From NCBI RefSeq assembly GCF_027625995.1, contig NZ_CP115396.1, positions 2,046,001 through 2,110,000 on the forward strand: DNA of 64,000 nt, given 5' to 3'. Below the pieces are notes generated by a model. That model ran no database searches and was not told the DNA's origin. It worked only from the letters and a program-made list of their open reading frames with translations. Position 1 is the first letter of the stretch. Each line of letters opens with the position of its first letter. This DNA is from Hymenobacter yonginensis. GTDB lineage: Bacteria > Bacteroidota > Bacteroidia > Cytophagales > Hymenobacteraceae. Below are positions 3-8,135 of this stretch, one piece after another. The position numbers and the translations under genes are program-made.

Positions 3-1589
3 CCGCGCGACGTGGCGGTGCTGAGCCGCACGCGGCGGGGCAGCCGGCTGGTGGCCAAGTTCCTGAAAGAGCGCGGCTACGATATTATTTCGGCCGATTC
101 ACTGTCGTTGGAGTTTGCGGAGGTGGTGAATCTGCTGGTGGCCATCTACCGGGTGCTCAACCAGCCGGCTGACACGCTGGCGCGGGCCGAGGCCTTGCTG
201 CTGTTCGACAAGGTGGTGCGGCGCGTGCCCCCCACCCCGGCCCGCGTGCGCCACCTGGCGGCGCTGGCCAATGCGGAGTCGGCGGCCGAATTCTTCGAGG
301 AGTTCCGGACGCTGGGCTACGACCTGCAGGAGCAGGAAACCGGCAACCTGGGCCTGTATGAGCTGACCGAGCGCCTGATTGGGCTGTTTGGGCTGCTGGG
401 CCGCAACGGAGAAAGTGAGTATCTGTTTAGGTTTCTGGACCTCACGCTGGAATACAGTTTGCGCTACGGCAACAACCTCAACAATTTCCTGGCTTACTGG
501 GAGCAGCGCAAAAGCAACCTCAGCATCAACGCCCCCGCCGGCCGCGACGCCATTACCATCACCACGGTGCACAAGGCCAAGGGCCTGGCCTACGGGGTGG
601 TGATTGTGCCCTTTGCCGACTGGAGCCTGGAGCCGCACCGGGGCACGCTGCTCTGGGGCCGCCTCAGCGAGGACGACAAGCCGGTGGCCGACATGCCGGC
701 CGTGGCCGTGGTGCCGCTCACCAAAAACCTGAGCCGCACGGCGCTGGCCGGGCAGTTTCTCCAGGAGCGCGAAAAGACCTTCCTCGAAGGCCTCAACATG
801 CTCTACGTGGCTCTCACCCGGCCCCGGCACCGGCTCTACATCCTCAGCAAACAGCCCGAGCCACCCAAGAAAACCACCGACGACACCGCCCCGGAAGGCC
901 CCGCCAAAAACGTAGCCGAGCTGCTGCACAGCTACCTGAAGCAGCAGCAGCTATGGGCTGAGGAGCAGGTGTCGTTCGTGGTTTCGCAGGGCTCTGCCGC
1001 CAAAGCTGACCTGAAAAACGACCAGCCGACCACCCGCAACTTCGCACTTACCAACCTGGAAACCGCGCCCTGGGAAGAGCGGCTGCGTTTGCGTCGCCAC
1101 GCCACCACCGTGTTCGATTTCGACCGGCAGGAGCAGCTGGGCGAGTGGAACCGCAAGCTGCACTACGGCCTGCGCCGCCTGTTGCTGGCCGAGGACGTGG
1201 AGCGCGTGGGCCGGCAGCTGGCGGCTGAAGGCTTCATCAGTACCCGCGAGCGGCCGGCACTGGAGCAGCGACTGCAGCAGGTGGTGAAGCACCCCGAGCT
1301 GGCCCGCTACTTCAGCGCCGAGGTAAGCGTGGAAACGGAGCGCGAAATTCTGGTGGGCGGCGTGAAGCGTCGCTACTACAAGCCCGACCGGGTGGTGTTT
1401 GAAACCCTGCCCGGCGCCACCGGCCGCGGCGAGGTGCGCGTGACGCTGCTCGATTTCAAGGTGCCGCCACCCAGCCCCACTCACCGCCTGCCGCTGCAGC
1501 AGTACGCGCAGCTCTTCCGGCAACTGGGCTACCGCGAAGTAGTGTGCGTGCTGTACTATTTCGGGTCGGAGGAAGTGGTGGTGTTTTAG
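3..1589 (+). CDS. AddA-like UvrD-family helicase/nuclease, C-terminal part (5' truncated by window edge)
   Basis: The frame is open to the first base of the window, so the N-terminal Walker A half lies outside. What is visible is helicase domain 2 of a UvrD/Rep-type superfamily 1 helicase: TVHKAKGLAYGVV around nt 556-600 is the motif V region and LYVALTRPRHRLYIL around nt 801-845 is motif VI. The C-terminus has a RecB/AddA-like PD-(D/E)XK nuclease module, YKPDRVV and LLDFK (about nt 1378-1460), followed by a QQYAQL helix. Known members pair with an AddB-like subunit to resect double-strand breaks for recombination. The likely partner is at 4554-8135, separated here by three unrelated genes. 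It ends just before a dispersed repeat. Confidence 0.85.
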   Translation, partial: PRDVAVLSRTRRGSRLVAKFLKERGYDIISADSLSLEFAEVVNLLVAIYRVLNQPADTLARAEALLLFDKVVRRVPPTPARVRHLAALANAESAAEFFEEFRTLGYDLQEQETGNLGLYELTERLIGLFGLLGRNGESEYLFRFLDLTLEYSLRYGNNLNNFLAYWEQRKSNLSINAPAGRDAITITTVHKAKGLAYGVVIVPFADWSLEPHRGTLLWGRLSEDDKPVADMPAVAVVPLTKNLSRTALAGQFLQEREKTFLEGLNMLYVALTRPRHRLYILSKQPEPPKKTTDDTAPEGPAKNVAELLHSYLKQQQLWAEEQVSFVVSQGSAAKADLKNDQPTTRNFALTNLETAPWEERLRLRRHATTVFDFDRQEQLGEWNRKLHYGLRRLLLAEDVERVGRQLAAEGFISTRERPALEQRLQQVVKHPELARYFSAEVSVETEREILVGGVKRRYYKPDRVVFETLPGATGRGEVRVTLLDFKVPPPSPTHRLPLQQYAQLFRQLGYREVVCVLYYFGSEEVVVF

Positions 1590-4553: not shown

Positions 4554-7500
4554 ATGAATTCGCTCCTGCCGCCTATCGTTTCGCCTGCTTCCGTTTCCAC
4601 CGAGTCGTTTCTGAGTCAGATGGCCCGCGACCTGACCGCGCGCTACTCGCCGGAAGAGCTGTCGGATCTGGTGGTGGTGGTGCCCACGCGGCGGGCCGTG
4701 GTGTACCTCAAAAACGAGCTGGCCATGGCCACCGACGCCGGCGAGGCCCTCTGGAGCCCGCGCGTGGCGGCCATGGAAGACTACATGGTGGAGCTGGCCG
4801 GCGTGCAGGTGGAAGAACCCATCACCCTGCAGCTGCTGCTCTACGACATCCTGCGCGACATCGACCCCAAGCTGGACTTCGACCGGTTTGTGAGCTGGGC
4901 CGGGCTGCTGCTCGAAGACTTCTCCAGCCTCGACCAGAACCTGGCCCCCGCCGACAAGGTGTTCGAGTACCTGTCGCAGGCCAAGGCACTGGAGCGCTGG
5001 GATTTGGGCGAGGCGCCCAAGCCGGAGTCGTTGACGGCCGGTTACTTCCGCTTCTGGGACGACCTGAGCAAGGTATACTACCGCCTGCGCCAGCGCATGC
5101 TGGCCCAGCACGTGGCCTACCCCGGCCTGGCGTATCGGCGCGCCGCTGAAAGGGTGGCCGAGCAGCTGGCGGCGGGCCAAGCGCTGCCGCGGCACGTATT
5201 TCTGGGGCTGGGCTTCCTCTCCAAGGCCGAGGAGCGCCTGATTCTGCAGCTGCTGAAAGCCGGTCTGGCCGAGGTGCGCTTCGACGGCGACGCCTTCTAC
5301 ATGGACGCCGACACGCCCAACCGCGCCGGCCAGCATCTGCGCCGCTACCTCAAAAACTGGGAGCTGCCGCTGGACGATTTCGGCGGGCCGGCCGAGCTGC
5401 TGCGCGGGCTGCCGCGCCACGTGCGCTTCGTGGGCGTGGCCAACGCCAGCATGCAGGGCAAGGTGGCCGGCCAGCTGCTGGCCGCCGCCCGCCTGGCTTA
5501 CCCCAGCGGCACGGTGGCCGTGGTGCTGCCCGACGAAACCCTGCTGCTGCCCGTGCTGCACGGCCTCCCGCCCGACGCCGTGCCCGATTACAACGTGACC
5601 ATGGGCCTCAGCTTCCAGAGCACGCCCCTGTTCAACCTCGTGGATCTGCTGTTTGAGGTGCATCTGACCGGCATCCGGGAGGGCTCCAGCGAAACCGGCT
5701 ACGGCGTGCCGCGCTACCACCACCTGGCCGTGACCAAGCTGCTGGGCCACCCATTTCTGCGCCGCTACCAGCAGTGGCTGGACAAGCAGCCCGATGTCGC
5801 GCACCACGGCCTGCTCGACCACATCTGCCGCGCCATTGTGAAGCGCAATGCCGTGCTGCTGCCGGCCACCGAGCTGCTGGAGCTGGGCAAGGAGCACGCG
5901 CTGATTGCGGCCCTGTTCAAAACCTGGGACACCTGCGACGACATTATTGCGGCCTGCTACACCCTCATTGACCTGCTGAAACAGGTGTACCAGGAGCAGC
6001 ATTCGGCCATCGAGGCGGAGTACCTGTACCTGTTCTACACGCTCGTCAAGCGCCTAGATTCGGTGTTCGACTGCCGGGAGCAGCGGCTGTCGGTGCGCTC
6101 GTTCCGACGGTTCCTCTACGAGCAGATGACGCGCACCCGCCTGCCGTTCTCGGGCGAGCCGATTGCCGATGTGCAGGTGATGGGTTTGCTGGAAACCCGC
6201 GCCCTCGACTTCGACCACATCATCCTGCTCAGCTGCAACGAAAACGTGCTGCCGGCCCCCAAGCGCCACACGTCGCTGTTCCCCTACGACGTGCTGACCG
6301 AGTTCCGCCTGCCCACCTACGCCGACCAGGAAGCCGCCACCGCCTACCACTTCTGGCGCCTGCTGCAGCGCGCCCGCCGCGTAGACCTGGTGCACGTGCT
6401 TCCCGGCGCCGAAGGCACCCGCACCGGCGAACGAAGCCGCTTCCTGCTCCAGCTCCAGAACGACCTGCTCCCCCAAAGCCCCCAGATGGTGCTGGAAGAT
6501 GTGGTGGCGGTGGTGACCGGCGCCAACGAAGGGCCTCACCCCCCGGCCCCCTCTCCCGTGGAGAGGGGGAGCCAGACGACTGCAACGCAGCCTGCTTCGG
6601 GGGCTTTCTCGCCGATTTCAGCTCGCGAAGGAGCAATAGCAGACCACGTGTTGATTGCTGCTGCAGCTACTTGGGGAAAAACCGCCACATTTTCCAAGGA
6701 GATGCGCAAACACCCAACTCCAGCCGAGGAATCCCTGTGGCAGGCTGTTCGCAATCAGAAGCTAGGCGAGAAGTTTCGGCGACAGCACGTTATCAACTCC
6801 TTTATAGTTGACTTCATCTGCATTGCCAAAATGCTCATTATTGAGGTGGATGGTGATGTTCATGCTGAAGCAGAACAAGCTGAATATGACGCGGGCCGCA
6901 CGCATGAGCTAAACGGGCTGGGATACCGGATTCTGCGTTTCTCGAATGAGGAAGTGCTTAACAACCTGACTACAGTACTTGAGCTGATCCAGGGAGTGCT
7001 ACAAAGTCTGCCACCACGCGTGCAGCCTGAAAATATCCCCAGCCCTTCACACACAGTGGTTGATTCACAAACCAAATTCCCCGACCAAACCGCCTACGTC
7101 AGCGAGTCGCTTGGCTCCCCCCTCTCCACGGGAGAGGGGGGCCGGGGGGGTGAGGCACCACCCGCGCCGTCCCTCAGCGACCTGACCCTCGACAAAGACG
7201 CCGGCATGCTCCAGGCCCTGCGCCTGCTGCTCGACAAAGGCCTCTCCCCCACGGCCCTCAACGAATACCTAGCCTGCTCGCTGAAGTTCTACTTCAACCG
7301 CGTGGCCCGGTTCCGCGAGGCCGACGAAGTGGAGGAAGCCCTCGGCGCCGACGGCTTCGGCACGGTGGTGCACGAGGCGCTGGAAGACTTGCTCACGCCG
7401 TTCCAGAAAAGCGGCCAGCCCCTCACCGCCGCCGACATTCCGGGCCTGGTGCAGCTGGCCCCCATGATGGTGCAGAAGGCGCTGCGCAAAGAGGAAAAAG

Positions 7501-8135
7501 ACCGCCACGCCCGCGCCGACGAAGGCCTCAACCACGTGCTAGGCCAGGTGGCCTCGCAGCTGGTGCGCCGCTACCTCGAAGGCCTGCTCACCGAAAAAGA
7601 CGGCCTACCGCTGCAGATTCAGGGTTTGGAAGAAGAGCTGCACGCCACGGTGTTTGTGCCGCTGCCTGATGGCGAGAAGCTGCCCGTGCGCCTCGTCGGT
7701 TTCGCCGACCGGGTCGACCAGCTGCCCGACGGCCGCCTGCGGGTGGTGGACTACAAAACCGGCCTCGTGCTGGCCCACGAGCTGAAGCTGCAGAAGCGCA
7801 ACGAAACCGCCGCCGAGGCCGCCGAGCGCCTCGTGCTCGACGCCACCTACTCGGCCGATAAGGTGCGCCAGCTGTGGCTCTACCGCTTCATGCTGGCCCA
7901 GAACGGCCGCCCCGCCGCCGATGCCGCCATCATCTCCTTGCGCAACCTGCCCGCCGGCCCCATGCCCGCCGACATGGGCTTTATCACCGCCGACGGCCAG
8001 GACTTCCTGCCCCGCAGCGAGGAGCTACTCGGCCGCATCATCCGCCGCATCCTCGACCCGCAGGAGCCCATCCGCAAAACCGACGACCTCGACAAATGCC
8101 AGTACTGCCCCTACAAAGGCATTTGCGCCAGGTAA
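4554..8135 (+). CDS. AddB-like PD-(D/E)XK nuclease, interrupted in frame by a DUF559 endonuclease element
   Basis: 1193 aa. The N-terminal half begins with a degenerate helicase-like domain (DLVVVVPTRRAVVYLKNEL, no Walker A lysine). The C-terminal nuclease has VVDYKTG (D1066, K1068) and the AddB-type iron-sulfur cysteines C908 in EYLACSLKFYF and C1182, C1185, C1191 in KCQYCPYKGICAR. Residues about 661-868 do not belong to this family: they form a DUF559 endonuclease domain framed by inverted repeats (nt 6534-7155). Without them the protein would be about 985 aa. The reading frame stays open throughout, and the insertion lies in the linker between the two halves, so the enzyme may still work. 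Expected partner of the AddA-like protein at 3-1589. Confidence 0.85.
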   Translation: MNSLLPPIVSPASVSTESFLSQMARDLTARYSPEELSDLVVVVPTRRAVVYLKNELAMATDAGEALWSPRVAAMEDYMVELAGVQVEEPITLQLLLYDILRDIDPKLDFDRFVSWAGLLLEDFSSLDQNLAPADKVFEYLSQAKALERWDLGEAPKPESLTAGYFRFWDDLSKVYYRLRQRMLAQHVAYPGLAYRRAAERVAEQLAAGQALPRHVFLGLGFLSKAEERLILQLLKAGLAEVRFDGDAFYMDADTPNRAGQHLRRYLKNWELPLDDFGGPAELLRGLPRHVRFVGVANASMQGKVAGQLLAAARLAYPSGTVAVVLPDETLLLPVLHGLPPDAVPDYNVTMGLSFQSTPLFNLVDLLFEVHLTGIREGSSETGYGVPRYHHLAVTKLLGHPFLRRYQQWLDKQPDVAHHGLLDHICRAIVKRNAVLLPATELLELGKEHALIAALFKTWDTCDDIIAACYTLIDLLKQVYQEQHSAIEAEYLYLFYTLVKRLDSVFDCREQRLSVRSFRRFLYEQMTRTRLPFSGEPIADVQVMGLLETRALDFDHIILLSCNENVLPAPKRHTSLFPYDVLTEFRLPTYADQEAATAYHFWRLLQRARRVDLVHVLPGAEGTRTGERSRFLLQLQNDLLPQSPQMVLEDVVAVVTGANEGPHPPAPSPVERGSQTTATQPASGAFSPISAREGAIADHVLIAAAATWGKTATFSKEMRKHPTPAEESLWQAVRNQKLGEKFRRQHVINSFIVDFICIAKMLIIEVDGDVHAEAEQAEYDAGRTHELNGLGYRILRFSNEEVLNNLTTVLELIQGVLQSLPPRVQPENIPSPSHTVVDSQTKFPDQTAYVSESLGSPLSTGEGGRGGEAPPAPSLSDLTLDKDAGMLQALRLLLDKGLSPTALNEYLACSLKFYFNRVARFREADEVEEALGADGFGTVVHEALEDLLTPFQKSGQPLTAADIPGLVQLAPMMVQKALRKEEKDRHARADEGLNHVLGQVASQLVRRYLEGLLTEKDGLPLQIQGLEEELHATVFVPLPDGEKLPVRLVGFADRVDQLPDGRLRVVDYKTGLVLAHELKLQKRNETAAEAAERLVLDATYSADKVRQLWLYRFMLAQNGRPAADAAIISLRNLPAGPMPADMGFITADGQDFLPRSEELLGRIIRRILDPQEPIRKTDDLDKCQYCPYKGICAR
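6534..7155 (+). mobile_element. DUF559 endonuclease element with 41/44-nt inverted termini, inserted in frame
   Basis: The left terminus 6534-6574 and the right terminus 7112-7155 are inverted copies. They differ only in the length of three homopolymer runs, each one base longer on the right. Each terminus contains its own hairpin (CCTCTCC, ACG loop, GGAGAGG). Between them is a DUF559/Vsr-like endonuclease domain: HPTPAEESLWQAVRNQKLG, FRRQHVINSFIVDFIC and LIIEVDGDVH, then YRILRFSNEEV. Internal base composition is visibly less GC-rich than the flanks. Both termini translate without stops (PPAPSPVERG on the left, PLSTGEGGRGGE on the right). No target-site duplication was recognised. No transposase is encoded. 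Confidence 0.85.

Follow-up and report, generated by a model that had tools for sequence, protein, structure and literature searches.

How a nuclease domain bounded by two inverted palindromes comes to lie in frame inside an AddB-like gene, and what kind of repeat those palindromes represent, are the questions raised by this locus of Hymenobacter yonginensis (GCF_027625995.1, NZ_CP115396.1). The window, i.e., the whole stretch of 64,000 nt that was analysed, spans positions 2,046,001-2,110,000 of the forward strand, and its features are collected in Table 1. A Pfam search with the 1193-aa ORF returned only DUF559 (PF04480; E 4e-33, 113.9 bits against a curated cut-off of 20.6), PDDEXK_1 (E 3e-32) and a weak match to MTES_1575. 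AddB-type models matched the C-terminal half of the host protein with scores below their cut-offs. The DUF559 domain sits in frame between the helicase-like and nuclease halves of the protein, and the arrangement given in a preliminary description of this DNA, an in-frame DUF559 between two inverted palindromes in an AddB-like gene, was confirmed by Pfam and alignment. Hint and splicing domains, which would mark an intein, were absent around the nuclease in the Pfam search of the ORF, as was any transposase domain, in agreement with the earlier claim that neither splicing nor a transposase is encoded. The same search found no extra DNA-binding domain in the ORF, and Rfam at its gathering thresholds returned no RNA family in the window. 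The neighbouring AddA/UvrD-like gene carries a related DUF559 element at site s4 (seven loci, three of them checked with Pfam), and the s4 insertion point, judged by locus L092, would fall just left of the window.

Table 1. Positions in the window of the host gene, its nuclease domains, the palindromic arms and the neighbouring gene.
Feature	Position	Strand	Remarks
Neighbouring AddA/UvrD-like gene, 3' part	12..1589	+	
Host ORF, AddB-like helicase-nuclease protein with in-frame insert	4554..8135	+	unbroken, 1193 aa
Left palindromic arm	6533..6581	+	head CCTCACCCCCC outward, tail AGCCAGACG inward; local alignment
Left-arm hairpin	6547..6569	.	
Conversion-like tract	6635..6740	+	23/37 differences between the window and G080, mostly at third codon positions
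DUF559 domain, Vsr/EDxHD-type PD-(D/E)XK nuclease	6681..7001	+	Pfam, aa 710-816
Right palindromic arm	7105..7156	-	inverted copy of the left arm, net +3 nt in three runs
Right-arm hairpin	7118..7140	.	loop same as that of the left, read head to tail
C-terminal PDDEXK_1 nuclease domain of the host protein	7242..8126	+	Pfam, aa 897-1191

The two arms, put at 41 and 44 nt in the preliminary description, indeed differ only by one additional base in each of three runs (C6/C7, C5/C6 and G5/G6), and because the net difference is 3 nt the reading frame is kept. The inverted-repeat score of the element was 76. Among 5000 placements with its geometry drawn at random within the window, a single one reached this value, without exceeding it, and most likely fell on the element itself. 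The hairpin pattern occurs twice in the 64 kb against 0.00 expected. That each arm folds as its own hairpin agrees with DNA folding energies of -11.6 and -13.6 kcal/mol (z -2.05 and -1.76), the folding excess being only modest because the arms are G+C-rich. The view of the arms as private termini of the element had to be given up, since the hairpin belongs to a dispersed REP/REPIN-like family.

A scan of genome contigs with the N-terminal half of the AddB-like protein yielded 75 Hymenobacter loci with 74 readable junctions. DUF559 was present at two of these junctions (L001 and L005), a short palindrome pair of the family alone at 10, and neither at 62. Inverted repeats without DUF559 were found in 19 of the 74 linkers, which manual sorting divided into the 10 with the window's palindrome family and nine of other kinds, and the linker gap measures at most 60 nt at 33 of the 74 junctions. 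In H. duratus (L002), with a protein 91% identical, the linker has neither DUF559 nor an inverted repeat. The range of states at this junction, occupied by DUF559, by other repeats or by nothing, indicates that the linker tolerates insertions. In L019-L022, L048 and L063 it is filled by other repeat-like peptides, e.g., QLSV...QQLTT in L021, and several repeat kinds thus seem to use the site. The DUF559 unit is probably not ancestral to the AddB-like gene. The junctions support the proposed insertion in the helicase-nuclease linker and the existence of empty orthologues, and the contrary outcome named beforehand, in which all orthologues carry DUF559 and lack the repeats, did not occur. The suggested comparison of occupied and empty sites succeeded in part: empty AddB orthologues were found, but no clean junction was obtained, and the altered linkers of the close relatives lacking DUF559 kept the exact insertion point from being fixed. 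Six pairs of occupied and empty sites likewise gave neither a clean junction nor a target duplication, the junctions being too diverged to show one.

PF04480 is present in 103 of the 120 genomes of the Hymenobacter genus group, with 241 matches in total and at most six per genome. From 117 fetched loci, mostly the best-scoring of the 241 matches, we analysed 113 DUF559 copies, leaving out four loci (L090, L098, L099 and L100) with weak partial DUF559 and no tblastn match. A copy was counted as flanked when an inverted repeat across the domain scored at least 46, and 600 random positions in loci L001-L075 served as controls. Strong flanking inverted repeats were found at 105 of the 113 copies, against one of the 600 control positions. 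Flank comparison assigned the 113 copies to 31 sites, of which 27 are flanked when judged by their typical copy.

Beyond the genus, DUF559 occurs in 170 of 296 Bacteroidota genomes. Ten of 29 fetched Bacteroidota copies outside Hymenobacter reached a flanking score of at least 46, and several in-frame copies below that score have translated palindromes near the domain. From 39 plasmid matches, 24 were fetched, i.e., the 23 analysed and one from E. coli. On the plasmids of Cyanobacteria, Deinococcota and Pseudomonadota, 13 of the 23 copies were flanked, against five of 520 control positions from 13 of the plasmid loci; the 10 copies that miss the score include those of Photobacterium, Methylobacterium and Shinella, which are at chance level. 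The expected co-occurrence of palindromes with DUF559 was thus borne out in the genus and, in part, on plasmids, and repeats spread genome-wide with no association to DUF559 and no empty sites, the other outcome that had been named as contrary, were not what we found. In the single E. coli copy examined (L297), no flanking inverted pair was detected; a long near-perfect palindrome lies just upstream of it and a G-rich hairpin downstream, mutually unmatched.

Pfam placed DUF559 in one open frame with a variety of host proteins. The Bacteroidota partners were LeuRS (two cases), HsdR (three), an HsdM-type methylase, a Type ISP enzyme, two other DNA methylases and MetH, and those in Hymenobacter were AddA/UvrD, AddB, RecQ, MetH and a glutamine amidotransferase (GATase_5), which we take to be of the PurL/PurQ type. 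The fused domain lies between host domains in several of the proteins and at an end in others, and copies in frame would be expressed as part of the host gene. On a Pseudanabaena plasmid, DUF559 and a methylase domain share a 1621-aa ORF situated between BREX genes. One Bacteroidota HsdR ORF (L254) holds GIY-YIG (aa 251-317) and DUF559 (aa 443-547) in one frame, i.e., two kinds of homing-type nuclease domain within one restriction gene. On Deinococcus plasmids of three species (L264, L267 and L268), DUF559 is found among hpa genes at three different points, and a Sphingomonas plasmid (L266) has a palindrome-flanked DUF559 between sufB and sufC. A phage origin of the DUF559 unit was rejected, as one scan of viral contigs returned only three weak relatives.

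The palindromes themselves are dispersed through the genomes, with 1-167 family heads per Hymenobacter genome (0-3 in the reversed control), and in most of these genomes they exceed the DUF559 copies many-fold. The family head is present at 97 of the 113 DUF559 loci, against 55 of 2000 background windows. Many of the repeats are REPIN-like, that is, head-out pairs spanning about 100-160 bp with no space for DUF559; at least eight such pairs were seen among the 33 places listed for G018. Repeat count and DUF559 count per genome are correlated (rho 0.54, uncorrected for kinship), and G076 and G051 are repeat-rich (79 and 71, respectively) without any DUF559 match. The left and right hairpin cores are identical in 42 of the 66 elements with both arms typed, against 5.8% between elements, suggesting that the arms evolve together. 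Among 209 inner arm tails, read outward, 75 have CGTC near the stem, 48 have CTAG, 30 have ACGGC and 56 have none of these. The CGTC tail suggests a possible link of the arms at DUF559 loci to CGTC-tagged REPs. An insert holding GCTTGATGCGCA lies within the hairpin of single arms in L080, L093 and L176, with a related form in L150; in L093 the two hairpins of the upstream pair each contain it, in inverted orientation, which marks copying between arms. At site s2, L106 has a palindrome pair and L109 a single compact palindrome, as if the pair had collapsed.

Hairpin type and nuclease clade proved to be matched. The DUF559 copies with type-B hairpins (stem CCCCTCCT) form one clade of 22 rows with support 100/100; two of these rows had first been labelled A1 owing to outer hairpins and four were unlabelled, and all were rescored by nearest hairpin. 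In this typing of the Hymenobacter loci, all 41 typed flanks of clade B proved to be type B and all 147 of the remaining copies type A; flanks were typed by regex, which covered 188 of 226 and missed 38, with both sides typed in 80 of the 113 loci. Site s1 is occupied by both DUF559 kinds, each with its own hairpin type. The number of type-B stems per genome has a median of 23 in the 54 clade-B carriers and of 2 in the 66 other genomes (p 4e-11, uncorrected for kinship); 55 genomes had matched as carriers, of which G115 was left out (108 bits, the level of other clades) and G100 was kept with a partial match. We turned to the stem pattern only after the head pattern of type B had shown a weaker association, with an odds ratio of 2.3 for clade B (p 0.047) at three or more copies and p 0.20 at one or more. 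Type-B stems are absent from 27 genomes, and clade-B DUF559 is absent from all of these. At least 10 type-B stems occur in 18 of the 66 genomes without clade-B DUF559, the largest exception being G020, which has 117 such stems and, between two type-B hairpins, a clade-B gene split over two frames. This is as expected if repeats outlive their enzyme; an assembly error is also possible. Matched gene and arms would also arise from co-inheritance within an element.

On the DUF559 tree the 31 site labels require at least 37 changes, against a theoretical minimum of 30 (the protein is short, and many forks are unresolved). The AddB-site copies, including that of the window, and the AddA-site copies from the neighbouring gene form one group with support 95/81, and insert-free AddA orthologues were found among more distant species, with flanks 70-82% identical. 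The dN/dS of DUF559 has a median of 0.09 over 156 pairs, with none above 1, indicating that the protein is kept by purifying selection; a stop codon was found in two of the 113 domains. The nearest relative compared, G080, shares 96% identity over 3.3 kb (L121) and likewise has the DUF559 unit at the AddB site; one extra G in its right loop, relative to the window, breaks the frame there. Of the 37 differences between the two, 23 fall within 106 of 629 bases (p 1.6e-10, for a tract picked after viewing the alignment), and 18 of these 23 are at third codon positions. From its pattern of substitutions, the tract resembles a gene conversion whose donor would be a different DUF559 copy outside the sample.

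As to the enzyme, a profile of 11 DUF559 domains matched two PDB entries, the endonuclease-like protein 3hrl (E 6e-32) and 3r3p, entered as "Mobile intron protein" (E 4e-5), the latter of which we take to be I-Bth0305I. The 3r3p match supports the previously suggested kinship to homing-type nucleases, and the PADLOC homing endonuclease model, HEase, also matches DUF559 (E 6e-5). Five columns are invariant in the 11 aligned domains, i.e., E22, D50, E61, D63 and H67. According to the accessible text of PMC3943268, I-Bth0305I belongs to the EDxHD enzymes and forms a dimer on a target almost 60 bp long, a length that, by analogy, is comparable to the 44-52 nt palindrome.

We consider it fairly likely that a DUF559 gene and the REP-like palindrome matched to it make up a single genetic unit, which is moving or has recently moved. 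The units are bounded by hairpins of matched type, occupy many sites with absences elsewhere, are under selection and include in-frame copies. From these features we infer that the unit is mobile and that the palindrome is cleaved: the nuclease would recognise its own palindrome, folded into a hairpin or cruciform, and nick or cut there. Hydrolytic nucleases of the Vsr fold cut and do not join, and we know of no strand-transfer activity of a PD-(D/E)XK nuclease of its own, so joining would be left to host repair via the homologous arms. Repair of the break may use a second copy of the unit as template, the palindromic arms supplying the homology, and would thereby bring the nuclease gene to further places that bear palindromes. 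Cutting and repair would keep both arms alike and probably spread palindrome pairs too, while copies landing in frame, either at the end of a protein or in a loop that tolerates them, would survive and be translated with the host protein. Such a model would explain the homogeneity of the arms, the conversion tract, the reuse of sites by different clades and the tie between enzyme type and repeat type. The unit is probably to RAYT-less REP-like repeats what RAYTs are to REPs, acting by break and repair; its nuclease would be the counterpart of the RAYT for repeats lacking one, and is a candidate for the enzyme, so far missing, behind their spread. A broader reading, offered tentatively, is that a Vsr-fold nuclease spreads both its own gene and gene-less hairpin pairs by palindrome cutting and host repair, hiding unspliced and in frame in conserved proteins (LeuRS, MetH, AddA, AddB, RecQ and restriction enzymes), and that it represents a widespread class of mobile element with no described counterpart.

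DUF559 might, alternatively, only home, copying itself into dispersed palindromes already present while something else spreads the pairs. The kinship to the mobile-intron nuclease 3r3p points in this direction, as does a DUF559 gene discussed in association with Thermosynechococcus inteins in the accessible part of PMC9403480. Clade-B DUF559, moreover, never occurs in a genome without type-B stems, whereas the stems occur without clade B, and family pairs stand alone in some AddB linkers (10/74). Homing by itself, however, leaves the spread of the palindrome pairs unexplained. The linker of L061, a 95% relative, holds a short palindrome pair of a subtype different from the window's arms and is therefore not simply the empty form of the window's element, and we regard an explanation by homing only as unlikely. 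If instead a transposase or RAYT acted on the palindromes, DUF559 would be cargo caught between two of them. Y1 (RAYT-type) transposases are present in 83 of the 120 genomes of the genus group, and repeats are more numerous in genomes with Y1 than in those without (median 42 versus 19, p 0.004, uncorrected for kinship). However, heads of the DUF559-associated repeat family were found at none of 40 Y1 loci in the genus within 900-nt flanks (20 of the best-scoring and 20 weaker matches, hand-picked from the list), and a RAYT was rejected on this ground as the first choice of driver for these repeats. Other inverted repeats were found at 25 of the 40 loci, in the same flanks and without a matched control. 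Genomes without a Y1 match can hold many repeats (140 in G014, 104 in G064 and 53 in G018), and chance cargo is unlikely to be the same gene family across phyla, or to be matched in hairpin type as in Hymenobacter. The probability that DUF559 is a passenger of this kind seems to us low.

DUF559 could also be a domesticated Vsr-like repair nuclease with a role in the host, the palindromes marking places that tolerate insertions. The strong purifying selection agrees with this, as do sites common to many species, such as s0 with 26 DUF559 copies, and a Vsr-like DUF559 protein has been reported in Caulobacter (PMC12907096, accessible text). Its patchy presence, the occupation of at least 31 sites, the repeated site changes on the tree and the strict match of DUF559 clade to hairpin type all argue against a host function, which we therefore judge very improbable. 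The matching of nuclease clade to palindrome type makes the question of the missing enzyme for REP-like repeats testable. If spread by palindrome cutting and host repair is indeed what the DUF559 unit does, a domain of unknown function would gain a role, and the RAYT-less REP-like repeats of several phyla would be accounted for. In-frame parasitic insertion without splicing would be an added route by which domains enter proteins, one in which frameshifts in the nuclease parasite also harm the host gene.

REP-like palindromes are among the commonest bacterial repeats; a RAYT is known for the GTAG kind, and in RAYTs the enzyme type goes with the repeat type. The DUF559 unit resembles such a REPtron in having one enzyme gene between inverted palindromes, with many gene-less pairs elsewhere in the genome, and in the agreement of enzyme type with repeat type. 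It differs in the flanked gene, which encodes a DUF559 PD-(D/E)XK nuclease and not an HUH/Y1 tyrosine transposase. With the Vsr-fold (EDxHD) homing endonucleases, such as I-Bth0305I, it shares a homologous nuclease domain and the location of the nuclease gene within other genes; unlike these, it has no surrounding intron or intein, is bounded by palindromes and occupies many sites. In the literature surveyed, which was mostly that available without subscription, we found no description of DUF559 flanked by REP-like repeats. For CGTC-kind REPs, no dedicated enzyme was found by Di Nocera et al. 2013, who also noted untagged kinds (PMC3733652, accessible text). The CGTC-tagged REP described there has a CGTC tag, an 8-9 bp stem starting with AT and a CCA tail, and the arms at DUF559 loci differ from it in stem and tail. 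The Rickettsia RPE and intragenic REPs covered in the same text are likewise in-frame palindromes within proteins, many of them in DNA-repair genes. Their inserts measure 20-30 and up to 82 aa, and the accessible text mentions no enzyme inside them, whereas the DUF559 unit has a nuclease between its palindromes. Because both the defining enzyme of a REPtron and the splicing context of an intein are lacking, we file the unit under neither; it may work like both a REPtron and an intein nuclease.
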